Origin: Mugil cephalus
Lineage: Eukaryota > Chordata > Actinopteri > Mugiliformes > Mugilidae
Assembly (NCBI RefSeq): GCF_022458985.1
Contig: NC_061789.1
Location: 16,586,357 to 16,650,356, forward strand
Reading direction: 5' to 3'
Length of the DNA: 64,000 bases
Positions 14,101 through 59,284 of this stretch are shown one piece after another; position 1 is the first letter of the stretch; each line of letters starts with the position of its first letter. The notes beneath the pieces are model-generated. The model was not told where the DNA came from and made no database searches. It saw only the letters and a program-made list of their open reading frames with translations. The position numbers and the translations under genes were made by a program.

Positions 14101-14930
14101 CACGCAAAAGGTTAACCAAACAAAATGAGTTAAAGTGGACAGAGGCAGAGTAAAGATTCGGAAATGTTATGCTGGAGGAGTCTGGCATTAGCTGCTCGAA
14201 GTGCTGCGCTGGTAAAAACGTGGCAACGGACAAATGTTTAACTTTATCTGCTGCATAAATGCCAGGGCGAGAACAAACAGTCCGGCACCAGGGGTTAATG
14301 AGGCGGATTGTTTTGTGCCACATCAGATGCTCGCAGCCCCAGTGTGACGTCTCTTCCTCTCGGTGAGACAAAGGTTGAACAACTTGACATCTTACCAGTC
14401 TGTTGTTCTCAAACACATCCTCCTTTCTGAGTGAGTCATAGTCTCTGGGAAACACAGGCAACAGGGACAAGTCAGGTTTGTTGAAACACAGGGGACCAGG
14501 GAGATGTGAACTATAAAAACTAAAAATAAGTTACATGTTCAAGGCATCATCTTTATTGTACATGACTGACATTCTTGAAAACACATCTATAAACAGCAGG
14601 CACAACTAGTAACGTGTGTTAAAATTAAGACAATTAACATAAACACATATGGATGAATTTAGAGTGACAAACAAAACACAATCTCTCAGAAAACTATGAG
14701 AAATGACTTCAGAATTTCTTTGGAGGCGACTCGTGGCACACTTCTTCCAGCCGAATCTTACATTCCAAAAGTTAAAGAAATACTCACATCAAATCCGGTC
14801 TGTACTTGTGAATGAGCGCGCAGAAAGCCAGTCCGTTCCTAAAGGAGGTGGTCATGTTGGTGACGGCCACGTCTCGGTAGCCATCGCACTGTATTTTACA
14901 CCACTGCTCCAAAGCCTTGATGGCAGCCAT
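4971..14930 (-). CDS. micall2: MICAL-like protein 2 (CH-LIM-bMERB), 17 coding exons, 761 aa
   Basis: Rab effector and scaffold that links endosomal or junctional Rab GTPases (Rab8/Rab13 class) to actin and recycling; cytoplasmic and membrane-associated. Exons, 5' to 3': 14930-14788, 14444-14396, 13259-13118, 12963-12794, 12708-12578, 12505-12008, 11909-11725, 10459-10399, 9981-9806, 8343-8221, 8032-7968, 7787-7664, 5968-5866, 5536-5463, 5378-5264, 5183-5137, 5050-4971. Every phase joins and the total is 2,286 nt. The start is the ATG giving [11 protein letters not shown], a family N terminus. The CH domain spans residues 1-111. The LIM zinc ligands are C186, C189, H207, C210, C213, C216, C236 and H239. 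A Ser/Pro-rich linker follows, then a coiled-coil bMERB domain (about 582-735) and a basic tail ending SKRRVE. It lacks the FAD monooxygenase of true MICALs. MICALL2 is preferred over MICALL1 from the CH sequence and from synteny with ints1. Intron 7 uses a GC donor. Middle-exon boundaries are the least certain; a or b paralogue is not resolved. Confidence 0.95.
6342..6379. repeat. Poly-A run in a micall2 intron
   Basis: Over 35 A in a row; poly-T on the transcribed strand of micall2 intron 12. Confidence 0.95.
8083..8119. repeat. Poly-A run in a micall2 intron
   Basis: About 37 A, within the intron between exons 10 and 11. Confidence 0.95.
8490..8730. repeat. Dispersed teleost-type repeat with internal hairpin
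   Basis: Contains GATTTGAGTGAAATGTTTCA and GGATGGATCGCCATGAAA, resembling a dispersed repeat I know from many fish genomes, then a long near-perfect inverted repeat at 8622-8694 (arms about 35 nt). It lies in a micall2 intron. Family name not assigned. Confidence 0.6.
9549..9696. repeat. Palindromic MITE-like repeat, copy 1
   Basis: Arms of about 48 nt (9549-9596 with about 9617-9664) form a long hairpin around GCAACTGGACTTGTAGAGTT, followed by GACTGAGAACCTTCACAGAC. The same parts recur at 37395-37566. Confidence 0.75.
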
Positions 14931-15180
14931 GGTCCCGGCGCGGAGCGGCTCGGTGCGCAGTGCGCAACAGGCAGAGCGGTGCGCTGCGTCTGGAGGAGTC
15001 GCGTCACGGGAGGTGGAGGGGGGGAGGAAAGGAAGATACAAACAAAATGTCACCGCGTCGGGGGTTTCACCATGAGCTGAGCCGCTGCAGCTGCGTCCTG
15101 TTTCCTTCTTTGTAGCGGACTGAGGCTCCGGGACGAGGTGCTTCTGCTGCTAGTGGTGGTGGTGTGTGTTGCTCCGCTCA
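14931..15180 (-). promoter_or_regulatory. micall2: 5' UTR and promoter region of micall2
   Basis: The sequence just upstream of the micall2 ATG is much richer in G, C and CpG (for example 14935-15010 and 15060-15140) than the AT-rich DNA beyond 15,200. This fits a CpG-type promoter with a short 5' leader. The reading frame stays open for 41 codons upstream of MAAIK without another ATG. The transcription start cannot be placed from sequence alone. Confidence 0.45.
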
Positions 15181-17414: not shown

Positions 17415-17420
17415 TTTATT
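17415..17420 (-). terminator. Candidate polyadenylation signal of the homeobox gene
   Basis: TTTATT on the plus strand gives AATAAA on the minus strand, about 40 nt after the stop codon. A 10-bp perfect hairpin (17386-17395 with 17403-17412, 7-nt loop) lies immediately downstream. A very short 3' UTR would result. Confidence 0.4.
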
Positions 17421-17456: not shown

Positions 17457-19262
17457 TCAGTCATTGTGCACGACATCAGTTTCCTGCGTTTGTGGCCGCG
17501 TGTCTCCTCCCGTCATGCTTACGGTGCTGTGGATCTCGGCCTCGTGCTCTCTAGCTTTGGCGCGTAGCTTGGCGATGCTGCAGGAGCGAAGCTCCTCTGA
17601 GCTCGGGCCCTCGGGCCTCTCCCACTTTCCCAACCGCGGGGCAGCGCCGAGCTGGGTACGCGGGCTCAGCGCGGCGCTTGGAGCTTTCGTCCACGGGTAA
17701 CTGTCTCCTTCCTGCTGTCTCTCCCAGTGTTCGCCGTCAGAACTCTCCGTCTGTTTAAAACTCTTGTTCGCTCCCCCGGACGGTTCGTCGTCGTCTCTTT
17801 TCACGTAAGGGCCCGTGAGCTGGCCCTGGAGCTTCAGCTGCCGCCTCATCTTGGCGCGGCGGTTTTGAAACCAAACCTTAAGAGAAATTGGGCAAAAATA
17901 CAACTATAAATTCATAATATATAGAGATATATAGATAAAAACTTTACAAGAGATATAAATAATATTAAAAAAATATCCAATGTACAAAATCTTGACAAGA
18001 AGAGTTGTTAAATTAAGCTCTTCACTAGGTGGCTAATATTAGTTGCATCTGAAATAACGCGTGTTGTATCCATGCTGGGAATCCAAAAATATAGCCACAT
18101 GCAAATTGCATTCAAAAGACCATTTGAACGTTCAAAGATACACTTAAAATTGCAGATATGAAGACATTGATTGCAGCTGAAACCTTGAAAGCAGAGACCT
18201 TTTTGAAATTTAGAAAACTGAAAAAAAAATTTTTATCATGGCCAGTATAGACACATAAAATAAAATGATGAATTGATTTTATAAAATAAATTATAACTAT
18301 CTCTGCGATTGTTTCAAAAAACAGTTCCCAAGTTGAGTATTGTGCACAAACTATTTTATATAACTGAAAACCAATTCTTTAAAGTTTATTATTTACAGTT
18401 AGTTTTTTGACAGAAACACCACTTTTTGACAACATAGCACAGAGGAATTCACTCTTGGTGTTATTAAAAAAAACAAAAAAAAAACACTGATATGATATAC
18501 TGACAAGATATTTTACATGTAAAGCTGTGTCGCTCATCACATGCTGGTATTGAAGGAAAAATGGTGGCTGGACTGAAGAGACGTATTTAAAAATGAATAT
18601 CAGCTGAATGAGTGTGCGCTCAGTCACCTGCACTCTGGCCTCGATGAGATCCAGTCTGAGGGCCAGGGCTTCCCTCATGAAGATGTCCGGGTAGTGGGTG
18701 GCCTCGAACGCCTTCTCCAGCTCCTCCAGCTGCCAGCTGCTGTAGTTGGCCCGCGCGCGCCGCTGCTTCACTGGCCTCTGTTCATCTGGAAAGCACAGCG
18801 CAGGCTCCAATTACACAATCGCCAACGGGTGACAGGGAACTAATGGCTCTAGATTGGATAATTAGCGCGGCGATCATTAGGCCCACTTTAACACTGCTTT
18901 GATAATTGATTGTTAGTCACGAGCTGTTAGTCAGTCTTTTGTAAACATTTACAGTGCAATCAGATGGCGCTCGCCTACTGTCTTGCACGGCGCACGGCAA
19001 AAACTGGAAACCGGGGTTTGAACTCACCTGTGCCGTCCGAGAGGGGGCCGATCCCGACCGCCTGTGTGGCCAGGAGCAAAGCCTCCTTGCACGGCTCTGG
19101 CTGCAGGTAATTCCTCAGGGATTCGTAGCTGATAAAGGGCCCCGGGATCAGGATCTGAGGTTGAGAGCCCAGTCTGGTTGGGAACGCGGGGAAAAAGTGA
19201 GCTGCAGGTGAATGGAAAACAGCTGGAAGGAGAGTGGATACCAGTTGCCCTGGGCCGAACAT
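17457..19262 (-). CDS. Divergent Unc-4/Uncx-like paired-class homeobox protein, 3 exons, about 270 aa
   Basis: Sequence-specific DNA-binding transcription factor, nuclear. Exons: 19262-19028, 18785-18628 and 17876-17457, total 813 nt, all phases consistent. The homeodomain covers residues 86-145: R5, L16, F20, W48, F49, Q50, N51 and R53 are present. The intron falls between homeodomain positions 46 and 47 (after RVQ, before VWFQNRR), typical of paired-class genes. The helix stretch [17 protein letters not shown] closely resembles Uncx, but position 56 is Met rather than Trp and the part after the homeodomain is KMRRQLKLQ, unlike Uncx. No paired domain and no obvious OAR motif are seen; the C terminus is acidic, then Ser/Pro/Arg-rich. 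The start at 19262 (MFGPGQLV) is the first ATG of the open frame; the frame is open upstream to about 19490, so an extra 5' exon is possible. It lies between micall2 and ints1, where mammals have no homeobox gene. SHOX- or DRGX-like identity is less likely. Confidence 0.85.

Positions 19263-19775: not shown

Positions 19776-19776
<1 letters not shown>

Positions 19777-19825
<49 letters not shown>
19777..19825. repeat. CA microsatellite upstream of the homeobox gene
   Basis: About 24 CA units, about 500 bp upstream of the inferred start codon of the homeobox gene. Confidence 0.95.
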
Positions 19826-26988: not shown

Positions 26989-29900
26989 CTACGTCGTCGC
27001 TTCCATGTGAAGGACCTTCATGGACTCTGCAATCATTGAACTGGTATCGATCTGCCCGTAGATACCCACCAAAAACGCCTTGTGGAGCAAGATGTCTGCG
27101 TGTTCTGGAGAGAGAGAAGAGTATTTTAAGTATGTGACGCAAAATATTTCACGGCCATGTTTTTGTAAAAGAAAAAAAAAACTTGATGTGGCGTCTGACC
27201 CTGGCAGAGAAGCACGTATTCGGGGAGGTTCCTTAGAGCCGTCTGCACCACGTCGAAGTTGCCGCTGCCCATGCAGTACATGAAAGTGGGCAGGAAGTCT
27301 GTGGCCAGGCTGCGGCACAAAAAAAACAAGCTCTCATACAATGTCAATACAAAGCTGACCTGTTCTTTTCTTCTCAGGTATCCAGCATGCTTTCTGAGCT
27401 CCTCACGTTCCACACTTACCAGGGATTGTTCTGGATGCAGCGCAGGGCCAGGCTGAAGGCCATGTTCCGACACAACTCCTCAGACGAAGTCATGAGTCTC
27501 TGCAGGTCGTTCTAGAAACAACACAACAAGGCGACGACCGACTCGTTACGTGACGACACAATCCTTGGCTGTTTTTCGTGTGTGTGTGTGTGTCTCTCTG
27601 TCGTCTGTGACTCACAGTGAAGTACTGTATGATCTCCGGGCTCCTCCTCGACTTCTCATCCACCTCCGTCAACACCTCCAACACATCTATAGCAGATCGG
27701 CATATTACTCATTACGGGTTAAGATAACAAACGGCGCATTCGTCAGGGTGATTCTGGAGGTAAACAAATGAACGTGCCGCACAGGTATGTTACTTACCTT
27801 CCACTGCCTCTCCTCTCGACATCTTCTTCAGGTACATTGTCATGTCTGCGGCGCTCAGGGAAAATGAGGCAGATATGTTGACTAAGGGCAGGGAACCAGT
27901 GGACAAGTCATCTGGTGAAGAGAAAAGGGAAAAGCGAGTGCCTCTTTATAACGTGTAATTTGAAAGAAAAGAAAACGGGACCCTGTCTTCAGACATGCAC
28001 TGGGTTTATTTTTGATTTACAAGGCCTGTGTGAGAGCTCTCAAACAACTGCACTTACCGTCTCTCTCTTCTGCTGGAACCTCTGAAGATGAGCTTTTCAC
28101 TGGCAAAGTGAGTCCAGCCAGCAAAGATTTTAGCTGCACCAAGTCTGGATTTTCTGCAGACATACACCTGAAAAGAGGAAAAAGAAAATAAAACTTTAGC
28201 CATCGCTGCGTTCAAACCGTCAGAAACGCATTCAAACGTTTCCACTTACTGTAAGATGTCCGAGTGCTTCTGTAGGTAAGGAATGGCGGCCGCTGCGTCG
28301 TGCGTTATGTACTTCTGCGTGAACTGCAGAAACTTGTTGATGAAGACCAGCGGAGACCGAGTCCTCTGAAAGTTCTACGGGACGACAGATGCACGCACAC
28401 ACATGAACACGAGCAAAACCCTCAATGAAAACGTGTCTGATCTCGACCCCGAATCCTCCAGCGAAGCACCTGAGCTGCCCACCTGAAGGATCCTCATGAA
28501 GGACAGAAGGCAGTCCTGAAGCGCCCTCTGGTGGTCGCCGTGGAAAACGAGCGGCTGCAGCAGCTCCAGGATGGCCAGCACGTTGCTGAAGAACGTCATG
28601 TGGTTCTGCTGCCGGAACTCGTGGATGTTCAGGTGCATGCGGCCGTGCAGGAGACCCGCAATCATGGGCAGGTGCCTGGGGACGAAAAAGAAACACGGGC
28701 GCTCGTCTTTTGCTGCTCCACTGCGGCAGATAATCTTTAAAGCATTTTCTTTTTTTTTAAATCCACCTGAGTAAAAGGACGGGGTGCGACACGGCCAGCT
28801 TCCTGCAGGCGAGGTTGGCATCAGACACGCGGCCCTCTGCGGACTTCGAGTCTCCTATGTCGGCAAGCAGCGTGACCAGGCGGTGGACCAGGACGTCCAG
28901 CTGATAATGAGAATAATTAAACAGTTTATCCTGTAGCATTGTGGTGACATAGGGGTTAAAAAAAATAAATAAAAATCACAGAAATACCATGTGAGTTGAC
29001 TGAGACCTAAAAAACTAATTTAATGAACACAAGACGGATTAGGAAACTAGCCCAATTTTTGGCCCTATAAGGGAACGTGAAACACTGTATGAAGGTATGT
29101 GACCTATTTTGTGAGACACGGTGTAATATGTCAGTGTGTACTGCTGCTTGTACGTAATTTATTACACTTTAGAAAATCATTTTTTTCACTTAGTAAAATT
29201 TCAGGCTAAACTAAATTTAGCCTGAGGTATAGCCTCTGGTCTAAGCATGACATCTACATGACTATTATATATACAGTGGGGGAAATAAGTATTTGATCCC
29301 CTGCTGAATTTGTAAGTTTGCCCACTTCCATAGAAATGATCAGACTCTGGTTTTTATGGTTGTTTACTGGTTATGGGTATAGACAGAATATCAGTCGAAA
29401 ATGCATAAAAAACACCAATCTAAAAGTTATAAATTGTTATGTATTTTATTAAGGGAAATAAGTATTTGATCCCCAACAATTCACTTAGAATTCAGGCTCC
29501 TACAGATTGGCTGGTGCGCATGTGGCACACAGCTGTGCTCAGTCAACTAATTACCAATACTCCTGATCTTAACTCGTCATGTATATAAAGCACACCTGCT
29601 CTAAGAATCAGTTTCTTACATTCCAACTTCTACAGCACCATGGGCAAGACCAAAGAGCTGTCAAAAGATGTCAGGGACAAGATTGTAGACCTGCACAAGG
29701 CTTGTATAGGTTACAAAACCATCAGCAAAAGGCTTGGTGAGAAGGTGACAACTATTGGTGCCATTATTCGCAAGTGGAAGACCCATAAAAGGATCATCAA
29801 CTGTCCTCGGTCTGGAGCTCCCCGCAAAATCTCGCCTCATGGAGTGAGGATGATGATGAGAAAGGTGAGGGAGCAGCCTAAAACAACACGGCAGGAGCTT

Positions 29901-32900
29901 GTTAATGATCTGGAAGCAGTTGGGACCTCCGTCACCAAGAAAACAGTTGGCAACACACTGCGCCGTTATGGATTGAACTCTTGCAGTGCCCGCAAGGTCC
30001 CCCTGCTCAAGAAGGCACATGTACAGGCCCGCCTTAAGTTTGCCAGTGAACATCTAAATGACTCAGAGAAGGCTTGGGAGAAAGTGCTGTGGTCTGACGA
30101 AACCAAAGTTGAGCTATTTGGCATTAACTCGACCCGCCGTGTTTGGAGGATGAAAAAACGTGAGTATGACCCAAAGAACACCATACCCACGGTTAAGCAT
30201 GGAGGTGGAAAATCATGTTTTGGGGCTGTTTTTCAGCAAAGGGTACAGGGCAACTTCACCGCATTATGGGGCCAATGAATGCAGCCATGTTCTGTAACAT
30301 CTTGGACAAAAACCTTCTTTCCTCAGCAAGAACACTGAAGATGCCTCGTGGGTGGGTTTTCCAACATGACAATGACCCAAAACATACTGCCAGGACAACA
30401 AAGGAGTGGCTCAAGAAGAAGCATATTAAGGTCATGGAGTGGCCTAGTCAGTCTCCAGACCTTAACCCGATCGAAAACCTGTGGAGGGAGCTGAAGCTCC
30501 GAGTTTCCAAGAGGCAGCCAAGAAACTTGAAGGATTTAGAGACTGTCTGTAAAGATGAATGGGCCAAAATCCCTCCTGCGCTGTGTGCAAACCTGGTGAC
30601 CAACTACAAGTAACGTCTCATCGCTGTGCTTGCCAACAAAGGTTTCTCTACAAAGTACTGACTTGTGTTGTGCTTGGGGATCAAATACTTATTTCCCTTA
30701 ATAAAATACATAACAATTTATAACTTTTAGATTGTGTGTTTTTTATGCATTTTCGACTGATATTCTGTCTATACCCATAACCAGTAAACAACCATAAAAA
30801 CCAGAGTCTGATCATTTCTATGGAAGTGGGCAAACTTACAAATTCAGCAGGGGATCAAATACTTATTTCCCCCACTGTATATATATATATGTATGTAGGT
30901 ATATTACCTTGCAGCTGATGCCGTCTGATGCCCCTCCACTGCTCAACGTGCCTTCGGGCAGAGTGACGTGCTGGATGACCTCAGGGAAGTGCAGATAGAT
31001 CTGCAGCAGCAAGTTCTGGCAGCGCTTGCTCATCGCACTGAAAGCCAAAAGAAACAAAAAGCTAAGTGTTCTGTGTTGTGCAGTTTAGGCGACCAAAGCG
31101 TGTGCCATTCACTTCAGGGGAAACAAACTTTCTTATTGTCTTAGGACGGTTCGGCCGTCCGTCGCAGACAGTAATCCCTGTCGTTATTGAGTCGTGTAGC
31201 CGGAGGCTATCGAGCTGGTGGACCAGTATTGTGCTGCCACCGAGCGCTTGTCCTCGCTCCTCCGGTCAAATGAGCGTCTCCGAGCGGCCGTGCTAACAAT
31301 TCGAAGCAGTTCCACTCACTTTTGTTTCACTTTCTCCATTTCCTTCGACGGATTATACACACAGCCGATGCGAGATCAGAGATTAGGGATTACTTCTCAG
31401 TTATTTCAACAATAATTATTGTTCATTAACACAAACCGGGGACGTGACTGGCATAATGTGATCCAGAGGTATTTCCGTCAAGTCACTGCAGTTTTTTGTA
31501 AAATCCTCTTACTGGCTAAGGCTCTCGCCAAAGGTTACACTCTCCACCGACTGGAGTTTATTACAGCAGCACATTAATCAAATCAGAGCGACCTTGACCG
31601 AGAGTGAGACTCCGCGCGTCGTTCAATAGTATGTGCGCAATTGGAATAAAACACCGGCTTATCTGACAACAAGCGCTCGCGAGAAGAATGCTTAATACAC
31701 AATCAAGTGTTTACTCAACACAAGGCCGGAGCCCTTTACTTTCAACGCGTTTTCATCCCGCCACGTTTTCACCAGTGACTATTTCACCAGACAGCTTAGC
31801 TGCGCTTAAAACACGGTAATTCTGAAGCTAATTTTTGCTTGACCTTGGCCGAAGTTTCCTCATTAAAGCGGTTTAATAACCAAAGACACATTCATGAAAG
31901 GAGGGTTTGCCTCCACAAAGAGCTGCACCCTGATCTCTGACAGCCCGAGTCAGAGCAGGAACTCACAACACAGGCGAGTTTGGAGCTTCAGCCGTAATCC
32001 TCTTGCCTTCATTAAAACACACTGAGCTTTTAAAGAGATCACGGTACAGACGACTTCTGCTGGTTTTAATTTCACACCAATAGACCTAATTATCGAGCTT
32101 TCCCCGGCCCCGCAGCATTGTGGCTGACAGAGGAAGTCTGAAAAGTTCATCTGCACCGAGAGGGGAAAATCTTGTGCGATTTACTCCGAGTTTATCGTCG
32201 CACAATAACGGGAAGAAAAATGACGTTCAGAATTCGGGCTAATTAGGGAGAATGTTTCCAAATAGAGTGGTCGGGCACGTGAGAAACTACGGCTGGATGG
32301 GCAAAATGAAAAATAAAAACGTTCAGATATTTAACGAATGCACGTCCCACCTGTCCTCCCACTTCTTTGTGCAGTTGATGAGATAATCTGCTACTTTCTT
32401 GATGTTCTCCAGGTCTCCGTTGCAGTAAGAGTGAAGGAGCGGCAGCCTGGACTGGATGAGGGAGCTGGAGGCCTGGTCCACGCTGCCTCTGTCGTCGTGG
32501 GGCGAGTCGCGGCTGTTGAGGTCGGACTCCGACAGGATCAGGTCCACCAGGCTGATGAGCTCCTCCGAACTGAGCCGCAGCACAAGCTTCTCCGTTTTCT
32601 TCTGCAAAAAATCGAAACGGAAAACGGTCTCCCTCTGATTTTTTATTATAAATGCGGGAGAAAATGGGTTTCATATGCAGGTTTTTTGCTCCTACTTGAG
32701 GGATCTTCTGGTCGCGCCCTTGCCAAATACGAGGTATGTGACTGCACGCCCACAGGAAGTCCAGAGCTGACGATGGATCAAGTCTGAAAAACAATTAAAC
32801 GGAGTAAGAAAATTCTATCAAGACAGTGTGTGGTGAAGGCAAGGTCTAAATTAAAATGACGTACTTGTAGTCTCTGCGCTTGCTGAGGAGAGCGCTGATA

Positions 32901-35900
32901 CACTGCAGCAGCGTGGACCAGTTCGACTGATGCGTAAGCAAGGCCAGGAGATAAGGTCTGTAAGCCGGGGTGCCTCGCGCCTGAGACAGATAAACAGCAA
33001 GAGAGGACGCATCACTAATACCGAGCAAACACCTACTCTGGGCCGATAAGACAAGAGGAGAACTCTATCTGCGGGCCGCGCTTATCGTACCTTGTTGAGG
33101 GCGAACAGCAGCTTCTGCTGTAAGTCCGGACAAACCGAAGTGACCTCGGGGTCGAGGTGCTCGAGCCAGTCGACCAGCAGGCCGGAGCTCAGGCCTGACT
33201 TCGTCACCTCAGAACCACTGGCAGAAAAAAAGGGAAAGGTTACCCCAATAGAAATGCTGGCTTGGAACAGCCTCAGTCAAAGCTTCACGTAAAAATAAGG
33301 CGTGATACGTCACAAAGCGGCAAGATTCAAGCTATGAGGTGTAGACAATCTACAGTGTAAGTTCTATGAGGAACTAAAGACGAGATCAACTGATTTTTTT
33401 TTGCTGATTTGTTTGAGCTGATGCTTTTTCCTCCCTCTATTTACATGATAAAAATGATAACAAATGTTACAAGTCTCAATCTACCACGCGCAAATATCGT
33501 CCGGCTGATGGATCTCTAAGGGCACGATTTAGCTGTGACAATAGTCTATGGTAAGAACAATACACCTTTAACCTTTTAAGTAATTCTGAACACAAATACA
33601 CGGTTCTAAATAAAAAGATATAAGACAGGAGTGTTTACATGGCTAAACCGTCTGCTGTGGAGCTTTGAATCTGCCTGGAATATGACAACAGAAGATCTGG
33701 TTTTTGAAGATGACAGACACGTTGATTCCAGCTTCGCTCATCTTTTTTAAGAACTAGTTTGACCACCTCGATGCGCTTCCATGTGTCTGTGATTTGTGGA
33801 AACTCTTCACACTACATGATGTTCACGGCATGTTGGACAAACACGCGCGCGGACGTGATGCGTTTTCTACCCAGAGAGAAACTATTAGATTAAACGTCTA
33901 CATGCTTATTAGGCACTCGTGTTTTGCCGCTGAAAGGATTATCACAGGTTTACACCACCCCATCAATCCCTCCACACGGGGCCAGTGTGTTCTCATTGAG
34001 GTGATTACATGGGGCATTTTGATTATGATTATTAGTGGATATCAGAGTCTTTGCAAACACAGTAGCTTTCAAAGCTCCTCGGACTGAGCCGAGCGTCGGG
34101 TTTATCCGACTGGAACTTGTCTTTGTCGCCTTCGATGCTGATTTCAGTCGTCAAGAATAACGTGAAACTAAATGTTTCAGTAGTAACAAGGCCTGTATAG
34201 TTAATTCACTCCATTTGCTAAAACCATAGACATTGTTCTACGTATATAAGGGCCATCACACCATCTAGTAGTGCTCCTCAGATAAGATGCTGAGATGAGA
34301 CAGTGAGTAAGTTCTCATTAGGTATTGCTGCCTCACTGGTTGGTGATGTCAATATGTTTTTTTTATGATTTCAAAATTACCATAAAGCTGCAGAAAAGCT
34401 GCAAAACCAATTAAACCTTCTTAAAGGGAATCCAGCAGCTGTTTACAAGTGCGAGGCAGCAGACAGTGGGCGCCGTCGGGCTATTTTTGTCGCCTTGTTT
34501 GTCATTTAGTCCTGTCGGATATAAACGTTTCTTGCATGACCTGAGATGGAAATGGAACTGCAGCGCTCACTTGTTAGAATCCACTTCCTTTTTCACAGCT
34601 CGCTCCTCGCTTTCCTGGAGGAGCAGGGAGATCACCATGGCAACAGGCCCGGCGGTCCCATTCTGTGTACCAACAGTCATCAGCAGAGAGAGCAGCTCCT
34701 CCAGATAGGGCGACTTCACCTCCATCAGTCCTTGCAACACTGAGAAATGAGTCAAAAGTAGCACATTTATCCGTTACTGTTTTCTCTTTTTGTATTTATT
34801 TGTTTATTTACCTTTAAAATCATATTTTAAAATGTGACGCTGCACTTTCGTCGCGAGATTTGTCCCCAGTTCAAGTTGTTTTTTTAACACAGCTTTTTTT
34901 CTTTTTATTGTAAAGTACTCATTTTGCCTTACTACATGTGTAAAAACAGTGTCACTAAAGGGCTTTCATATAACTGATTGAAAACAAAATCCGCAGAACA
35001 ATTGAAATCCACTAATTAAAAATGTGAAAACTGAATGACTACATTTGCTGTACATTCAAAAACCCCTGACGACCACAGTTAATCTATCCAAGTTGGAGGC
35101 ACTGAGGACCCTAGGTTCTGGGAGGGGCCTCTGATAATACTTGGTTTGCGTGTCCTGGTGATGCCTCTGGTTGGAGAGTTGATTAATATCGTTTCAATCA
35201 CTCTCCTGACCAGTCTTTTGAACACCAGATCAACCAGGGTTAATACCTTTGCCAATGAGCTCGGCTTCTGCGTTACATCTCTCTCCGGCTCTCAGCATCG
35301 CCATGACGGCTCTCAGCGGCACCTCGGTGTCCGTGCGATAAGCCAGAGCCTCGGCCAGGTGAATGAAACCCGTGCGCACTGCGGAGCAGGAAACGGTTAT
35401 TGCCCGCGCATGAAATGAATTAACAGCATCCAGGAGGACAAATGGTTGGGAGTGCTCACCGTCGTTGTGTCTGTGTTTGTGAGAGTTCTGACCAGCAAAG
35501 GATTTCAGCAGCGTCTTCAACGGTCCTGCATCCACAGTCGGGTTGTCCAACCAGATTAACATCTCAACGATGACTTTGAGGAACAGAGAGGAGAAAGCGA
35601 TGTCCTGGGACACGAGGCGCTGGAAAACACAAAGCGGAACAATTGTTTTAATGATTTTTAATTTCTTTTTAAAGTGGGTCACGGAACAATGCGGCGATGT
35701 TCGGCGTGTCGCACCTGGTAGAGGTGAAGCTGGCGCATTAGAGGACACGAGAGCGCATGGCTGTGATGCATCGACATAACAATGGGCCCAGCGTGAGCAG
35801 AGGTGAGCAGGGCTGCGATGGCCTGCAGCAGGCGAAACGCCAAACCGCCCTGCTGGATGTGCCCCTGCTTGGCTCGCATCAGCTCTTTAGCCAAGGCCTG

Positions 35901-38900
35901 CTGCAGGGCCAGGGACAGCTGACTGGGAGGGGGGCCGTGCCAGCGAGGGTCCACTTTCAAGGGGAAGATCTGCGGGAGTGAAAGGAAAACACTTGTAGCA
36001 TTTCACTACCTTAAACCCGTATCATCCGAAGTAAAACGGCTAGTTTACCTGAAGCAACATGCCGGTGAGATCGTCCTCAGGCCCGACCGCAGGCAGCTGG
36101 CTGGCTGCTCTCATCTTCAGAGAGCTGTGGGCCGTTTCCACAGTGACTTTGGCCTTACTTGTTTCTGGTGAATCTGCCAAGAGAAATGTAATAATTCAGA
36201 TAACATGCATATAATCCTTGTGCACAATTTTAATATTATTAAATTAGAAATAAAAAACAAATTTGCTAGAACACTTATGTGTCACATTAGTTTAAATCGC
36301 ACATTAAAAAAATCAAAGCATATAGTCACTGACCTCTGTGCGGAGGAAGAGAAGAACTCAATAAAGCGTGGAAAGTGTGCCCCCCGGTGGCACCTCGCTC
36401 ATGCTGCACCTCAACTAAGTGAGCCATGTAGTCTGTTGAACAGGCAATAAAGAGTCGAATTAATCACAAAGAGCTAAGCAAAATTAAAATAACTGCACTG
36501 CTTTACTGTAATGTAGTGGAAACTCTTACGCTTGTCCATGATGTTCTGCTCCAGCGACTGTGGATCATGAGAGACGGCCTGATCGAGGTACTGCAGGAGT
36601 TTGCTCATGCTGGAGACCGGAATCCCGAAGGACTGGACAAACAGCAGCAGCTGCTGAGGCTCCAGGTCTTGTAAAGCTGAGGGGAACATGTGCGTCAGTC
36701 AGTTAAAAATTAAAAACAAATTACTCGGCGCCCTGCACGCATTTTCTTTTTTTTTTGCGTGCAACAAAAAGCTGCTGTACCTGCATCAACCAATCGAGAG
36801 ACCTCAGATCGGATCATCCTCAGTTTCAACCAATCGGGAAGCAGGAGGGCCTCCTCTGAGGTGTCGACCAGGAAGGCCGTGGGGAGAGGCTTCTTGTCGG
36901 GGAACCAAATGTCCAAAAGAGCGTAGAAATCACTCTCTCCTGTAAAAATACACGCAACAGTCAACACACTCTTATAACCCTGTCTAACAATGCCCCTTAT
37001 AGTAGAACTACCTTTGGGTGGGCCGAGAGTCAGCAAGATAACCATAGCATGTACTACAAGGATGTGCATCGTAGCCGTCTCTCCTGTAGTCCAGCGCAGA
37101 AACACCTGGTCCTGGGATTCTGACTGGAGAAATAAACAATGTCTGTTATAATAAACAATGGAAACAGAAAGCTTGTCATGTACACATGTTCCTGGTAACT
37201 GCTTACAGTTGTAACGCGCAAATTAATCATGAGTAAAAAGTTGGCCACTCACCATTTAATTGTTCTCATCTAACCAATCAAGACTTCAACTTTTGACATA
37301 AACAACACATTTTTTTAGGATGTACAGAACTTCAAAATGTAAATCTCTGTGAGACAGTGAGAAGATAAACAAGGCCCAACCAAAAACTGTTAAAGAAAGG
37401 CAACTGGACCTGTAGAGTGATGAATAACAGATGTGCCAATTTAAACCCAACTTCTCACCAGTGCGGTAAGTGGGGAAACGTCTTTAAGAAACTCAACAAG
37501 ACCAGTTGCGTTTCTTAATGATTTTGGATTTACCATTATCTGGACGACTGAGAACCTTCACAGAGATAAATTAGTTTTATTAAACTGTAAACACAACTGG
37601 CACCGGCGCTCACCCAGCTGTACAGATCCTCGCCCTCCTTGGTCTTCCTCATCCTCCTGATGTAGGTAGAGAAGATGGTGAGGAAAGCAGAGAGCACGGC
37701 GTCCGACTCCGGCCGGGTGGAGTGTTTGGAAAAGAGGTTGTTCATGATGGTGGAGCGCTCGACGATCAGCCGGGCAATGTCCTAGAGAGAGAGAGAGAGA
37801 GAAGGAGCGGGGAGGAGGGGTCGATTGTAAGCACATCTCTCAAAAGTCAAACTTGAGCTGTCTTTGAACTTAAAGAAAATAATGTAATGCTGGAATTTAA
37901 ATAACTCGCCGTGATTACCAGGGCCAGGTCATTGTGAGAAGCCTGCTCCTCCACTGGTGCATGCTGGGACAGGTAGATGAGATAGGCGCTGATCGTCTGC
38001 GGGTCCGTCTCCATGTGAATGGCCTTGAAAGGAGCCGAGACGGACACGACGTTCAAACTCATGTTTATATAAAAAGCTCATCTCCGGCGGCGGCCGAGAC
38101 ACTGACCTGCTGCAGGGCGGTGGACGTCATGCCCCTGACGCTGTCGAACAAGGGCAGCTTCGGGAGGTCCTGAAGCAGCCACTGGTACCCGGGCAAGAGC
38201 TCAGCGTCCGCAGAGTCCTCTTCCATGGGCTGATCTCGCTCCTCTCCGTCTTTCAGGCCTCCTTCACTCAGCACCAGTGACAAACCCTGCACACAAATAC
38301 GCATTCTATGTATAAATGCTCTTTTTTTCCACCACTAAACAAACTACTAAAGATTTTTTTCTGCTTTCAATACCTTCATAGCTAGAACTCTTGATGCCAC
38401 CTGAGAAGAGCTGAGGCGACGCAGGAAGTAATCCAGCACTTCGCACGTTGTTTGTTCATCAGCCTTAGGACCCAATAAAAGGTCCTGGAGGCGTCCAAGT
38501 AGCTGCCTTTGCTTTTGTTGCCTCTAAGAGGAAAAACAAATAAGAAATCAGTCTGTGTCAAGACCATGCAAGTCTGATCTTGTACCCAGCACACCGATTG
38601 GAGACGATGCTCTCTAGGTCCAAAATCGTATATGTTCAGCATACTTGTCTCTTCTTGGCCCTCTGCTCTTTGCTCTCTCCTTCCTCGTCGTCCTCTATCG
38701 GCAGGCTGTCATCTGCAGCGTCGTGCAGCAGGAATTCGCACAGACACTGCACTGGAAGCACGTCCAAGGAGCCTTCGCTGGACTGGACCAAGTCGGCCAA
38801 CCATGGCATGGACTGCGAGGAAGCCTGTCGGGGATCGAAAACGTGTTAGAGGTCAAGCGCCCTCGCCGACGCCGAGAGCAAATGCCATGTTTGGATTTCC

Positions 38901-41288
38901 ACATAGGACTTTAGGCTCAATCTAAGCGTTCTTGGACAACGTTTTACACTAGCAAAATTCCTGGGCTCCATGTTAGCATGAAAGCGTGTCTCTGTTTAGA
39001 CGTAATTACCATTACAAAGACGATGTAACGGTCAGTTTAGAGAGACTAAGAGAGAAAATCTGACACAGTCAGAGCGCAGACAGACATCTTTACACGTGGT
39101 TCAGTGATAAATAAAGACACTGACATTGAAGAAGATGAGCAGGAACATATCCAGCTCATTAACCAATTAACCGGGGCTGAGCTACTCGGATGAAAAAGTC
39201 AGGAAGGTGTGTACGTGGCCTTTACCTGTCTCTGAATGATGTTGAGGAGAAAGTCTGGGTTGCGGCTGCGGCAGAGGAGGTGACCGAGGCGCAGGGACTG
39301 GTTGAGAGTCTTCACCTGCTCCTGGACCTGAGGGGGAGGTCGACGAGGAGGACCCCTACACACAAACAACAGCACATTCATCAGGACTTTAAAAACTCAG
39401 AAGAGTTCATACACAGGTGTTTTTTTTTAGTATTTTCTATGAGCTCCCTGTGGTGGATAGAACTGTGTAGGTGAACTGTGGCCCTTCTCATTTACTCATT
39501 TATTTAATTGGGACAATGCACATTAATCAACATTGGTGCATTAGGCATCAGTGTAAATGGATCAAACTTAGTACAAATTTTCAGTCGTAGTCCCAGGCAG
39601 GTACTGAAACGAATCATACAATAGACAATTACAAAACCAGACGACAGTCTCCACAATAAAAGAATCGACTACATTCTCCTGAAGTCAGACCCCTTGATTT
39701 GCCATCCTACAGCATTTCTCTCTAAACTCCCTCATTCAATGCCATTCAATTATATTTCTTGGTCATTTTGAGTAAATGACATCTCCTTTCCCTGCTTTGT
39801 GGGCATCAGTCATTTCTGCTGGGCAGCTCAATCACCACTGACTGTGGGGGCAAAGCTCGGAAAAGTTAGGTTTGGGATTTTCAACACCTGGCCTGTTCGA
39901 ATAATGACCGACAGCCGGACATAACCACGGCCCTAATAATTAACCTCTGAGACCGGAGTAAAAGTTATTTGAGTTCAAATCTCTCGGGGTGCAGGAAGTT
40001 TGCATGGTGCTCCTTTTAATTTTTACAAAAAGTGGTCATCACATGGAGGTCATCGTGGGGAGGTGGTGGGTGATGGGAAAACCAATCGCCTGCGCTGTGC
40101 GGTGGAGCTCCACCTTCTTTCCACCAAGCAAGCCTGCTCCCAGCAGACCACATACATAGAACCACTATTGTGTTTTATTTTTGGATTCTATTTCATGACT
40201 ATTTTTATCTCCTGTGCTGCTGCCAACGCGGCAAGTTTCCCCATTGTGATATAAATAAAATGCTGATCTTATCTTACTCACTCCACTACTGAATATGACA
40301 CAAATTGAATAACATTATATCACAGCAGAGCAGATTTCCACTGCTAAGTGTCTTACTGAGGATCCAGGCTGGTGAGCTGAGACAAAAGCAAACTGTTGCT
40401 CTCGGTGATGGTCTGTTTGGTGGACGCCGCTGCCAGGTGGCTCTCAAAGGCCAGGATCTCTTGTTTCTCTCTCTGGGAGATCTGCAGCTCCCTGTTGATC
40501 ATCTCCGTCTTCGTGTCCTCATCCGCAATAGTGCAGGGAGGGTATGTGTAGTTACTATGAAAACAGAAGGAGAAGTTAGCAGCTATGCATATCATTACGT
40601 TTTAATAATTTGATAACCTCCCTTACTTTGTCATAACCATCTCCATGAGCATTTTCAGCGTAGGGTATCCATCCCAAGCTGCCAAACCTAAAAGATAAAT
40701 GTTTGCATATTTATATATATAAAAAAAAGACATGTATTAACTGACTGTATGCATATATGTGTGTGATTTTTATACCTATCTTCTGAGGATTAAATGCAGC
40801 CACCACAAGCAACAAGAGCCAAGCCTTCCAGTACAGAGTGGATATCGCCAAATTTGGCGGTTGGTACCTTAAACATTAGGAGTGGTTTGTTATTTCAGCC
40901 CGTCAAGCCGACGTCCCGTACGCGTTTCTTAAAAGCCATTAAAGACAGCTGACGTACCCCGCCGGCAGCTGGATGTTCTCCGGGTGGTGGTACGTGCACA
41001 GATTCAGCACCGCATCGATGAGCTGGATCCTCTCCACTCTCAGGACCTCCAGATCTGTTTAACGAGAAACAGTCAGGCGGGGGTTACGGCCGGGACAACT
41101 ACAACAATGAAAAGCATATTTCCTTTGTTCATACTTTCCTAACATTATTTAGTCAACTTGAAAAGACGGGGACCTCTTGAATGGCTGAAGGCGACTCATT
41201 AAAGTGAAGCGCAAGTGTTTAACAAATGTCCAAACATTCTGTCAGCATCTTTAACCGGGACCCTAAACATTTATAGTCTTAATGGATC

Positions 41289-41332
<44 letters not shown>

Positions 41333-44300
41333 GTCGGACTGGACTCCGGCGGCTCTCTTAACCAGGTGATCCGCGAGCTCCATGGCGTCCGCCGGGCCCA
41401 GAGGCAGGTCACGTGACAGCCCGATCACGAGAATGCGCATCAGCGTGTCCTCCAACAAAGGCACCTCCGAGCAAAGGCGAAGGAAGAAACTGAGGGATGG
41501 GAAAAAAAAAAAAAATGGCTCAATAAAGTGACAGAGGGGGGAAAAAAAAAAATCGAAAAATCTGAGGAGGCTGCAGGGAAGGCTCACTTTCTGTCGCTCT
41601 CGGGAGGCCAGTTGTCCCACTTGTAGTACGTCTCAGGCTGCTCTGTGAAGAGCACCTTGTGAAGGCTGCAGATACGCATAAAGAAAAATCATGAATAACC
41701 AAGCAGAAGCCACAAGCAGCTGTTTGGATGATAAACACATCAGCTAAATGAAGGTAGTCACCAGTGAACGTAGTCTTTCGCGCCCACTTTGCTGATGGTA
41801 GGAACCACGGAGTGAAGCCACCACACAGCGTCCCTTTGGATGGCGGCGATCTGATTCTGAAACGACCTCAGGACCTCCAGATCTGAAACGAAAACCAGAG
41901 ACGCGTCCAACCCAAGGCAAAACAAATCACCACAAACCCACCACTAGAACTAGAAATGCAAGGCACCCACTCTTCTTCTCTCCTTTGTCCCACGCGATGC
42001 CAGCTTCCTTAACCTGAGCGGTGATGCCCAGCATCATGGAGACGGTCAGTAAATCTGTCACCTGGATGACGAAGCGCTCCTACAGCAGAGAGGGCAACAA
42101 GTGGTTCAGATTAAATCCATGAAGAAAAGAGCTGAAAGGAGGCAGGAGCGGAGGACTCACTTTGAACTCCATGTCCACGTAGCTGGACTCTTTTCTCTCC
42201 TGCATCAGACCGAAGCAAAAGGACTGGAAGTTGATCTCATGCTTGGTCTGCTTGATAATCTCTCTCAGCAAAGCTCGGGAGGCGCGGAGGTAATCGTCCT
42301 TATTGGTCAGCAAGTCTTGGAACACCATCGCCAAGAACTACGGACATAAAGAAACAAGGCGATTATTAAGAAACCGAGTGAATGTAAAGACAGAGGGGAA
42401 AAAAACAAAGGAAATGAAGTTGTGGTTTGACCTTTGGAGCCTGCTCTGGACTGTGCTGCAGCACCGTGTGGAGCACTTGCATGTTGTTGGGATTTCTGGC
42501 GTTGGACAGCTCATTAAAGATGACCAGCTTCACCATCGTGCCCAGGTTGTCTTTGTGAGCATTTAGCAGCTCCCTGGAGAATCCAAAGCACCGGTTAGCG
42601 ACAGCGTGACAACGAGATGAAGGCACGGACAAAAAGTACAACTCCACAGACCTGACACAGAGCATGTAGTGGTTGAGGAGGACTTTCGGTTTGAGTCGTA
42701 TCTTGATCAGGTTGGAGACCACCTCCATGTCGTCTGTTCCGTGGGTGTTGCAGTTCATGCACAGAGACATGAGGAGGTCCTGAGCGGGACGAGTCAGCTG
42801 AACGCGCAAAGACAAAAAAAAGGTAATAAATATAAATAGTGACCCATTAGAGAAGAAAATGTATCGTGATACAGGTGCAAAAGCCAGATACTGTGTAATT
42901 AGGTAGGGATTCAGCATCATCAGATGTAAGTAGTGCACCAGAGATTAGAGAAATCTTTTATTTCTAGAAGACAATGAAACCGTCACAATGAATGACCATG
43001 TATTGCCTTCTGTTATTCACAGGTGCAGAAAGTAAGCTCCCCAGAAATAATCAGGGTAACTCACATCTTGGGTTAACTCCACAAACCAAGCTTTCATCAC
43101 ATAGTTTCCAGTGTCCAACACTAACAAGATTGTCAAGCAGTTCATATCTAGGCCCAAATCTTCCCAATGACCGTTAGTACTCAGTTAAGGAGAGTAGAAT
43201 CAGTAGCACCTGTTGCTACGACCACTAGCATGTGTTACTGACGTTAAATACCCAACCAGAGGGCCGTTCGTCTTATACTGACTGGTTAAACTGTAACTGC
43301 ATGTCTTCCAGACAGACACAATGTTTAAGTTCCCAGCTGACCCTGCATCTGCAACTCTTGCTGAAAGGGCCACATTAACGACCAGCTTAAGTGCACTTAT
43401 CGCCACAGTTAAAGAGAGGTCAACATTGCGTTGTGATGAAGTGATAGCTCTCAGAATTATGAGTACCACAACATGAGCGCAGTATGACAACACTGGTATG
43501 TGTGCATCTCCCAACACTCCCAACGCATGTTTCAGTCAGTGCGTTTACATGCACGTGAAAAAAACTAATTATTGCCTTAATCAATCTGTTGCATGAACGA
43601 CTCTTGTTTATTGATAAATCCCCCGGAAATCGGGCCGTATTAACGTGGTATTATCCCGCTAAAAAGACACGTATCGCCACCTAGTGTGGAAGAGGAGAAC
43701 AGTTATTCGATTTTCTTGCGCTGCATGTAAACTGGGACAAGGACTGTAGTGAGAAAGTCGAATTTTGGTGACTCTAAATTGACCCTAGGTGTGTGTGTGT
43801 GAGTGCGAACGGTTGTTTGTCTCTGTGTTATCCCTGCGACAGGCTGGCGACCTGTCCAGGGTTTACCCCGCCTCTAAACCCAATGGCAGCTTGGATAGAC
43901 TCCAGCAACCCGCGTGACCCTGGTGAGGATTAAGCGGTATGGAAGATGAGATGAGACGGGACTTTTCACCTTTGGATTTTGGAGCCACATCTCCAGCCTC
44001 TGCACGGCCATGAGTCGTGCCTCTTTGTAGCCACACGTGGCTGTGAGCAGACGCAGCAAGTTTCGGGACACGTTGTCCATCGGCTGCCTGCGGTTCAGCT
44101 GATCCTTGAGGACGTCGAGCACGTAGTCCTCGACGCTCTCTGCGAGCTCCTCATACCTAAAGATCAGAATCAGATTTGTTGCCACTTGTGCTCTCACATA
44201 CAAGTTATTTGTCTCAGTGTTTGGTGCAATAAACGTAATCATAAGTCTAACTAACGAATGAGAACGAAATAAAATACAAGAAATATAAAAATAATATGTA

Positions 44301-46005
44301 AAAAGACTGGATTTAAAAAAAGAAAGAATTATTTTAAATAGAAACAGAACTGTACACATGAATGTCAGCGGAGCAGAAACACAGTCCTTGACACTTTGCA
44401 ACATGTGAACTGTACATTCTAGCTGTTGTCACGTTTACATGGAGATTTCATACCTGGGCATAACCTGCCCTTCATCCTCAGGGCTGAGTTTCTCTTCAGC
44501 TATCAGCAACTCAGTCTGGCTGTCGTCCTCGTCTGGAGTTGAGGGATGAGGGCTGCTGCCTTAAAAACCCACAAGCAACATGCAGCAATTCAGAACGTGT
44601 TTCCAATATCAGCATTTATATAACATATAAAGCCAGTGTGCTTTAAGAACATACTATACCTGCACTGAGATCTCCACCAGTGCGTCCAGTATCAGCCTGC
44701 AGCAACATACTCTTTGGGGGCATCTTTGTGCCAAAAGCAGTTTGGATGTTGTCAACAAAATTTTTACAGTGAGAACTGTCCACCCAAATCCTTTCCCCCA
44801 GCGAGTCCTCAATGTACACCTGAAAATACATTGTACAGTGGAAATTACAATTAGAACAAAATCTCTTTGGAAATGACAACATATAAAGTTTGCTTGACAT
44901 TTCTGGAGACTCACTTTGACAAAGATCTCTGGCCAGTTCTCGTCCTCCTCGTACGCGGCCATGAGCAGATTGCAAGCCAGCACAGACACCAGGCTGTTGC
45001 CTTTTGCTTTAAAGTTGATGGAGGCGTCCCGCCGCAGGAGGCTGCACAAGGCCTGGAAACAACAGTGAGACATGTGTGGTTTAGTAGAAGAAAACATATC
45101 AAGGTCCGAATACTTCCACTTTGCAAGATTAAAACCGTACTGCAGCACATATTTAATGTAAAAACAAGTGTATATAGTATAATTGCATGACTAATAAGCT
45201 ATCAATTAATAGCTCTACATCAAAATTTCTTCCTCTGCTCCTCCTTTATGAGTGCATCCTGACTCTCACCTCAATAATTCCTTCAGTTGCAAAAACGTTG
45301 GGCTTGATTTTGGCCAGAAACATGAGACTGAGGTACAGTGTGATATCAGGTTTGGCTCTGTTCATCTTTAGCTGCTTCACCGCTCCACACAGCAATCCCT
45401 CGATGCGATCATCGTTTCCCTCTGACTCTGCAGCTTCGATCTCATCCAGCAGCACCGCTGGAGACACTGCCAACCACAAGGGGAGAATTATTTTACTTCC
45501 CCAATCAGTCACAAACTCAGCGTTTGCACATCTATGCAATTTTTGAATTTATTATAAGAAACAGACACCACTGATTTACCTTCAATGGGTACCACTGACG
45601 GTTCTTTTATTGAGGGTGATATAGCCCTCTTGTCCACAGCTGCGACATCAGCGAGTCGTCCCAGCGCACTGACCGGAGGAGTGGTGGAGAGCTTGGGCCG
45701 TTTGGCTAGGTTGGAGAGACTGGACGAGGAAGGGAGAGCCGAGGTGGTCTCCCTCTTACGGTCTGCAGGTAAACCTGTGGATGCTGGCTTCAAGAGGACA
45801 GCTGGGGCTTTGGGCTCTCCTCCCTGGTTCTTAGAGCCAAGAGCAATGAAGTCCCCTGGTGGAGGATGGCCTGGGTGAGGCAGATGTCTCAGTTAGATTT
45901 TTGTAAAGACAAAACACTGAAGTGACACTTGCCTGTGTAACTAGTCGTACCTGAGGGCTTTGCAGCGCTGGGGCGCCTGAGAGTTGTAGGCTTTGGGCGA
46001 TTCAT
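26989..46005 (-). CDS. ints1: Integrator complex subunit 1, 47 coding exons, 2,186 aa
   Basis: Large scaffold subunit of Integrator, the nuclear complex that cleaves snRNA 3' ends and attenuates RNA polymerase II. Exons, 5' to 3': 46005-45951, 45870-45580, 45466-45270, 45052-44915, 44819-44660, 44559-44454, 44156-43970, 42797-42652, 42573-42432, 42337-42161, 42079-41971, 41882-41762, 41665-41588, 41489-41332, 41054-40958, 40867-40776, 40687-40627, 40554-40357, 39355-39226, 38824-38645, 38523-38374, 38286-38107, 38023-37919, 37781-37614, 37123-37012, 36939-36781, 36676-36530, 36432-36334, 36173-36049, 35969-35715, 35619-35460, 35378-35247, 34739-34571, 33217-33091, 32980-32865, 32783-32696, 32601-32351, 31037-30908, 28900-28767, 28675-28483, 28374-28250, 28167-28058, 27911-27798, 27686-27616, 27511-27420, 27309-27200, 27104-26989. 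They sum to 6,561 nt, an exact multiple of three, and the length matches human INTS1 (about 2,190 aa). The start [19 protein letters not shown] and end LHMEATT match family termini. The protein is mostly helical-repeat with a disordered basic N terminus and an acidic/basic stretch near exon 20 ([15 protein letters not shown]). All introns are GT-AG and no frame break is seen, so the copy looks functional. Confidence 0.97.
29274..29474 (+). repeat. Left terminal inverted repeat of the Tc1 element
   Basis: 201 bp, nearly identical in inverted orientation to 30676-30877. It holds two direct copies of GGGAAATAAGTATTTGATCC (outer from about 29278, inner from 29453), the transposase-binding arrangement known as IR/DR in Tc1-like elements. 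Confidence 0.93.
29640..30613 (+). pseudogene. Tc1 transposase, broken by a one-base frameshift
   Basis: DDE transposase that would cut and paste the element. The first frame (29640-30278) carries the N-terminal helix-turn-helix DNA-binding region ([11 protein letters not shown]-like) and the first catalytic Asp in LWSDETK (30096-30098). Just after VKHGGG, near 30207-30214, the frame shifts by one missing base. The second frame (30215-30613) carries [10 protein letters not shown], the second Asp in HDNDPKHT (30368-30370) and the Glu in NPIENLW (30473-30475). The Asp-Glu spacing is 34 residues, the DD34E signature of Tc1. Family length is about 340 aa and the two frames together would cover nearly all of it. 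As it stands the copy should be unable to make active enzyme. Confidence 0.93.
30676..30877 (-). repeat. Right terminal inverted repeat of the Tc1 element
   Basis: 202 bp. By eye the only difference from the left repeat is one inserted base in the CACACAATC stretch. Such similarity points to a recent insertion, or to conversion between the ends. Confidence 0.93.
37395..37566. repeat. Palindromic MITE-like repeat, copy 2, in an ints1 intron
   Basis: Shares GGCAACTGGACCTGTAGAG, GGATTTACCATTATCTGG and ACTGAGAACCTTCACAGA with the copy at 9.55 kb but has a longer centre. It sits between ints1 exons 24 and 25. Confidence 0.7.
37785..37802. repeat. GA/TC microsatellite next to an ints1 acceptor
   Basis: (GA)8-9 on the plus strand; on the minus strand it is the pyrimidine tract of the acceptor before exon 24 (starts 37781). 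Confidence 0.9.
41291..41331. repeat. CA/GT microsatellite that forms an ints1 splice donor
   Basis: About 20 CA units; on the minus strand a GT run begins at the end of ints1 exon 14 (41332). Confidence 0.95.
43537..43734. mobile_element. hAT-like MITE, 198 bp, in ints1 intron 7
   Basis: Ends CAGTGCGTTTACATGCAC and GCTGCATGTAAACTG are imperfect inverted repeats. No coding capacity. The class is inferred from the CAG ends. Confidence 0.6.
43755..43958 (+). repeat. Teleost retroposon-type repeat with GATGA-like tail
   Basis: Contains GGCTGGCGACCTGTCCAGGG, TACCCCGCCTCT and GGATTAAGCGGTATGGAAGA, ending in GATGAGATGAG. It closely resembles a common fish retroposon 3' end. It directly precedes ints1 exon 7. 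Confidence 0.65.
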
Positions 46006-58742: not shown

Positions 58743-59284
58743 GACGAGCAAAGCTTTAAAGGTGAGTGTGAGAAAGTCCGGGACTTGCTCTTGTCCAAAA
58801 CGCGTTCTGTTCTTCATGTTTTTCACCCATTTCCCACATCCTGCAGGTCAAGAAGGAGGCCGGTGAGAATGCCCCGACGCTCAGCGACGACGAGCTGGTG
58901 GCCATGTCCGTGCGGGAGCTCAACCAGCACCTGCGCGGGCTGACGAAGGAGGACGTCGTGAGGCTGAAGCAGAGGCGGCGGACCCTGAAGAATCGCGGCT
59001 ACGCCGCCAGCTGCCGCATCAAGCGCGTCACCCAGAAGGAGGAGCTGGAGAGGCAAAAGACAGAGCTGCAGCAGGAGGTGGACAAGCTCGCCCGGGAAAA
59101 CGCCAGCATGAGGTTGGAGCTGGAGGCCCTGCGGGCCAAGTATGAGACCCTGCAGTGTTTTGCCCGGACTGTGACCCGAGGGCCCCTGTCGCCGGGCAAG
59201 GTAGCCACCACCAGCGTCATCACCATCGTCAAGTCCGCCAACCACAACAACTCCAGCCCCACCCCGTTCTCAGCCACTTCCTAG
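58726..59284 (+). CDS. mafk: Small Maf transcription factor MafK, 157 aa, two coding exons
   Basis: bZIP protein without a transactivation domain; binds MARE/ARE sites as a homodimer or with NRF/NFE2/BACH partners, in the nucleus. Exons: 58726-58761 ([12 protein letters not shown]) and 58847-59284, joined in phase 0. Visible parts: a sumoylation-type motif VKKE at residues 13-16 (K14 is a known site in MafK); the Maf extended homology region ([20 protein letters not shown], 24-43); the basic region [20 protein letters not shown] (53-72); a leucine zipper to about residue 120; and a C-terminal TSVITIVKS tail characteristic of MafK rather than MafF or MafG. Length and synteny with ints1 agree with MAFK (156 aa in human). 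Regulation: see the promoter and upstream-frame entries. Confidence 0.97.

Follow-up and report, generated by a model that had tools for sequence, protein, structure and literature searches.

The interval between micall2 and ints1 on contig C20 raises two questions: does it carry a homeobox gene that is related to uncx and distinct from it, and where would such a gene have come from? An earlier note on this DNA had placed an extra, divergent Uncx-like gene here and had offered two origins, a local tandem duplicate of uncx or an old gene of the paired class that mammals have lost. We refer to this locus as gene X, and to the whole stretch of DNA analysed, 64,000 nucleotides of C20 from 16586357 to 16650356, as the window.

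The human homeobox catalogue lists UNCX as alone in its family (PMC2211742), a passage of PMC1896008 describes UNC4.1 as having no close paralogue, and an excerpt of PMC6543554 gives two uncx genes for teleosts and sets aside, as highly divergent, Uncx proteins from fugu and from Ciona. Among the matches listed in a literature search, no paper named a further uncx-like gene of fish, beyond these two, at this position. The Uncx relatives of gene X are uncx4.1 and uncx in teleosts and UNCX in mammals. A clone-named zebrafish homeobox gene may be an orthologue; a literature search on it found no papers.

Gene structure and genomic context

Gene X lies on the minus strand at window 19262-17457, a span that runs exactly from its ATG to its stop (Table 1). 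As had been claimed, its three exons join in phase, giving a spliced frame of 813 nt that encodes 270 amino acids and a stop, and both introns have GT..AG borders, with phases 1 and then 0. Exon GC is 0.59-0.64 and GC3 is 0.67-0.87; the introns have a GC content of 0.30 and 0.48. A CA microsatellite is present at window 19776-19825, ~0.5 kb upstream of the ATG.

Table 1. Features of gene X and its neighbours, in window coordinates.
Feature	Position	Strand	Remarks
Gene X exon 1	19028..19262	-	Opens with the ATG at 19262 and holds 78 codons and one further base; phase 1, with the donor GT from 19027
Gene X exon 2	18628..18785	-	Encodes the linker and residues 1-46 of the homeodomain; donor in phase 0
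Gene X exon 3	17457..17876	-	Homeodomain residues 47-60, tail, OAR motif and stop (TGA)
OAR motif in exon 3	17538..17591	-	Protein residues 227-244; Pfam (residues 105-122 of the open frame)
AATAAA hexamer, possible poly(A) signal of gene X	17415..17420	-	37 nt past the stop; a short motif that may be chance
Neighbour taken as micall2, open frame with part of a CH domain	14787..15149	-	Pfam CH, 37.9 bits; best match elsewhere at C2:21173431
ints1 neighbour	27129..44428	-	INTS1 open frames at 27.1-27.5, 42.4-42.9 and 43.9-44.4 kb; gene limits may differ
Small-maf exon	58772..59281	+	Pfam bZIP_Maf, 108.9 bits

The spliced protein contains a complete Pfam homeodomain at residues 87-143 (75.5 bits, E 2.8e-21, profile positions 1-57 of 57) and a Pfam OAR motif (29.4 bits, E 6.4e-7, cut-off 20.1). 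Both scores exceed the curated cut-offs and the matches are thus not due to chance; the open frames of exons 2 and 3 give 44.8 bits for the homeodomain and 30.3 bits for the OAR respectively. No further Pfam domain was found in the spliced protein up to E 10. The best PDB matches of the homeodomain are aristaless, ALX4 and PHOX2B. The contact residues R5, Q50, N51 and R53, the intron between homeodomain residues 46 and 47, and Met56 were all described in the earlier note and all hold in the spliced protein, and residues A4, A6, A22, M56 and L60 are gene X's own. A complete paired-type homeodomain, Q50, the 46/47 intron and an OAR, a motif present in part of the PRD class, together place the protein in that class. 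Its sequence is that of an intact homeobox gene of the paired-like (Q50) type that codes for protein. The OAR motif had escaped the earlier note, as had the absence of eh1 and the fact that the genome has two true uncx genes at other loci, both described below.

The order of genes in the window is micall2, gene X and ints1, followed by the small-maf exon. The CH-domain frame, which we take to be micall2 from sequence features and its position, is ~2.5 kb from gene X and on the same strand. On the other side ints1 is identified by the Pfam domains INTS1_R4 and INTS1_RP2B-bd and by PDB matches to Integrator complex subunit 1. The earlier placement of a divergent Uncx-like gene between these two neighbours is upheld, with the CH exon on one side and INTS1 on the other. 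The small-maf exon is presumably mafk, by its position. Tc1/Sleeping Beauty-type transposase frames occupy window 29589-30610 (+), within ints1 and on the opposite strand, the first of them with HTH_SB and HTH_Tnp_Tc3_2 domains.

A third gene beside two uncx genes

The genome searched comprises 634.8 Mb in 24 contigs. The exon-2 peptide of gene X has 46 matches in it: itself, C20:16505815 (75%), C2:21041040 (73%), and 43 others with no more than 68% identity over the matched lengths. Elsewhere in the genome, exons 1 and 3 have no significant match (next best E values 3.05 and 0.31 respectively), and a scan of viral contigs for relatives of gene X returned none. A general homeodomain search, in which 150 of 456 candidates were scored, listed neither gene X nor the uncx genes and thus has no bearing on them. 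The C20 and C2 loci both have an MDSR N-terminus, an FSIDGLL string, a common stretch of 20 homeodomain residues and a KKGPGRPAHN tail, and from these sequence features we take them to be ordinary uncx genes. With one such gene on C20 and one on C2, gene X is a third gene.

The C20 uncx is 99 kb from gene X, with micall2 between them. The view that gene X is not itself an ordinary uncx is borne out by this separate, real uncx beyond micall2 on the same chromosome. On C2, the distance between uncx and the second micall2 (C2:21173431) is 132 kb. Our use of the names uncx and micall2 rests on sequence features, and on the linkage of the two genes in PMC6543554, an excerpt of which reports that the zebrafish uncx and micall2 duplicates are linked likewise. 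The organism is a teleost, as we infer from the duplication of both genes.

A partner of gene X was sought on C2, in 39.6 kb beginning with the second micall2, and none was found there (best E 0.44). Its expected ohnologue must thus have been lost or moved from the interval searched. Open frames of at least 35 amino acids from the window were also compared with the same segment (C2:21173300-21212900), giving no ints1 or maf match at E 1e-6, so that these genes too seem to be lost from the duplicated block or to have moved out of it; matches there other than micall2 look like repeats.

Sequences outside the homeodomain

The N- and C-termini of gene X had been described as unlike those of Uncx, and the alignments agree, being no better than those of shuffled sequences. 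For the N-terminus 978 and 970 of 1000 shuffles scored as high or higher against the two uncx copies, and for the tail 500 and 102 of 1000 scored as high. The two uncx copies align with each other in both regions (0 of 1000 shuffles in each). Two eh1 motifs, FSIDGLL and FSVESLL, occur in the C20 uncx, and both strings can be read in the frames of the C2 uncx as well; neither the pattern used for the C20 uncx nor a looser one finds an eh1 in gene X. Conversely, Pfam finds no OAR in the exon-3 frame of either uncx up to E 10, within HMMER's filters. The KKGPGRPAHN...CSGEP region that follows the homeodomain in both uncx copies is absent from gene X.

One explanation for this distribution is that gene X is a chimera, in which exons 1 and 2 of an Uncx duplicate were joined at the 46/47 intron to exon 3 of another paired-like gene, possibly a Vsx-like one. 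Such an event would account for the foreign homeodomain exit and the OAR together, and fits the absence of a detected OAR in uncx. It is also in keeping with homeodomain residues 47-60, which are not nearest to uncx: gene X matches uncx at 10 of 14 positions and a Rax-like protein at up to 12 of 14. When the OAR tail is aligned to the tail of the Vsx2-like C17 gene, the score is 93, reached by none of 2000 shuffles (maximum 71), and the match takes in EELR upstream and TVS downstream of the OAR core. Against this, the 14-residue cores differ little between families, gene X matching Vsx-like at 11 of 14 positions and Alx4-like at 10 of 14, and the comparison favours Vsx-like, as the OAR pieces from other families were shorter; it included one Vsx-like gene (C17) and left out a second (C21). 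Gene X also lacks the CVC region of Vsx proteins. The loss of an ancestral OAR in Uncx would fit the frequent loss of motifs in the PRD class described in a passage of PMC4901127, which places an OAR in over half of paired-like proteins. We consider the chimera unlikely, although it is the strongest of the rival explanations.

Homeodomain relationships

The homeodomain of gene X is identical to that of the C20 uncx at 45 of 60 positions (75%) and to that of the C2 uncx at 44 of 60 (73%), both below the identity of 80% or more that is usual within human homeobox families (PMC2211742). We read 29 of the 45 other exon-2 matches and placed them in trees; the remaining 16, one of which (C17) was read in part, stand outside the trees. 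Apart from the two uncx copies, the homeodomains read number 27, with at most 40 of 60 identities (67%) to gene X; the labels used for the paralogues (Alx-, Pax-, Shox-, Otp-, Rax-, Otx-, Vsx-like etc.) are putative. W11 and A33 are common to gene X and both uncx copies, and occur at none of the 27 other loci. Like both uncx genes, gene X has three exons and introns of phase 1 and then phase 0, the first of which interrupts an Asp codon.

In a tree of 30 rows gene X groups with the uncx pair with support of 93/89, just under the program's star, and within this group the C20 and C2 copies pair first (95/81). A second tree contained 18 of these 30 rows, 12 copies or near-copies having been dropped, and seven added sequences of provisional status. 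In it gene X and the Uncx/Unc-4 proteins, including three of these provisional sequences, from invertebrate Unc-4, form a group with 98/97. Kinship to Uncx is thus well supported by the homeodomain. The exact branching of gene X among Uncx/Unc-4 is not: in the second tree gene X is sister to all Uncx/Unc-4 with 67/75 and the uncx pair receives 68/76, and a tree joining gene X to the vertebrate uncx genes is not rejected (p-AU 0.41).

Gene X might instead belong to an old paired-like family of separate origin from Uncx, with a homeodomain like that of Uncx and a place in the same block by chance. The lack of detectable uncx similarity outside the homeodomain agrees with this, as does the weakly supported sister position. 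The provisional fly and worm Unc-4 homeodomains are likewise nearer to fish uncx (49-53 of 60) than to gene X (44-45 of 60), a distance which indicates that gene X is either older or faster evolving. A separate family nonetheless appears improbable, given the grouping with Uncx/Unc-4 at 98/97 in the second tree, the restriction of W11 and A33 to gene X and uncx among the 29 loci, the linkage to uncx within 100 kb, and the equal intron phases.

Origin and age

We favour the reading that gene X is probably an old Uncx paralogue, which arose by local duplication within the block of uncx, micall2 and ints1, earlier than the genome duplication specific to teleosts, and is now single-copy. Gene X would have split from Uncx while the ancestor still bore an OAR, and one of its two teleost-duplication copies would later have been lost or moved, a requirement that counts against this reading. 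The choice between tandem duplicate and old gene set out in the earlier note thus gives way to a combination of the two, in which the gene is related and linked to Uncx, and is also old, as its OAR, its flanks and its tree position outside the uncx pair suggest.

Three observations argue that gene X is old rather than a recent copy: no OAR was found in uncx, the flanks show no detectable similarity, and gene X falls outside the uncx pair. A tandem duplicate of the C20 uncx that arose recently, in teleosts or in this species alone, and evolved very fast would be in accord with the distance of 99 kb between the two, with I41, which gene X shares with the C20 copy alone, and with a topology test in which joining gene X to the C20 uncx is not rejected (p-AU 0.49). 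It is however very improbable, since such a copy must have shed both eh1 motifs and every detectable flanking similarity, and acquired an OAR, while the uncx pair kept its own features; a split before the duplication is simpler. Synonymous sites between gene X and uncx are also saturated or nearly so (pS 0.73-0.93), although those between the two uncx copies are saturated as well (pS 0.86), so that pS cannot separate a duplication before the teleost event from one at or soon after it. The branch of gene X is long in the homeodomain comparison, a short alignment from one genome, and the argument for age draws on motifs and divergence that fast evolution may mimic. Least probable of all is a pseudogene or untranscribed remnant: gene X is known here from the DNA of a single genome, but 270 codons are open across three exons with canonical splice sites, GC3 is high relative to the GC of the introns, and homeodomain residues are preserved despite saturated synonymous sites.

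The reading as an old Uncx paralogue can be tentatively extended, to a sister family of Uncx/Unc-4 that would date from the first jawed vertebrates or earlier, have been linked to Uncx through micall2 ever since, and have been retained in fish and lost in mammals. Binding the same sites, but acting through its OAR and not through eh1 motifs that recruit Groucho, it would form with uncx a linked pair of opposing activator and repressor. We regard this wider proposal as less likely than not.

Selection and predicted function

In the homeodomain, comparison of gene X with uncx gives a pN of 0.16 against the high pS, which indicates selective constraint on the DNA-binding domain ever since the two diverged, the signal being partly that of the uncx branch. 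Q50, N51 and R53 predict binding to paired-type palindromic TAAT sites, and from its homeodomain the gene X protein would be expected to bind DNA as Uncx does. The eh1 motifs bind Groucho co-repressors. With an OAR and no eh1, gene X would probably modulate or activate shared targets and not repress them through Groucho; a passage of PMC4901127 ascribes to the OAR a presumed role in activating transcription. Our best guess is that gene X encodes a factor that binds Uncx sites with a different, non-Groucho output, and both its transcription and its regulatory role are putative.

Comparison with known systems

In kind gene X is still ordinary, being one further paired-like homeobox gene. A third gene in this block, one that has an OAR where uncx has eh1 motifs, would alter how redundancy in uncx mutants is read, and also how the regulatory landscape around micall2 is read.

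With the Vsx family, as represented by the putatively Vsx2-like C17 gene, gene X has in common an OAR preceded by EELR and followed by TVS; the exon-2 match of that gene is only 53%, and the homeodomain of gene X is not of the Vsx type. The likeness to Uncx/Unc-4 is broader, comprising 73-75% homeodomain identity, W11 and A33, the 46/47 intron with a phase-1 intron just upstream, three exons, and the same chromosomal block. Unlike Uncx/Unc-4, gene X has an OAR, Met56 and an RRQLKLQ exit, and is without eh1, a KKGPGRPAHN-type region and a detectably similar N-terminus; worm UNC-4 carries an eh1 motif, as noted in a passage of PMC4901127. If orthologues exist in other fish, gene X would be one more vertebrate homeobox gene missing from mammals. 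Pax6.2, described in part of PMC3554528 from fish, frog and lizard, is a precedent for a vertebrate homeobox paralogue lost in birds and mammals; it differs from gene X in belonging to another family and in having orthologues shown in several species.
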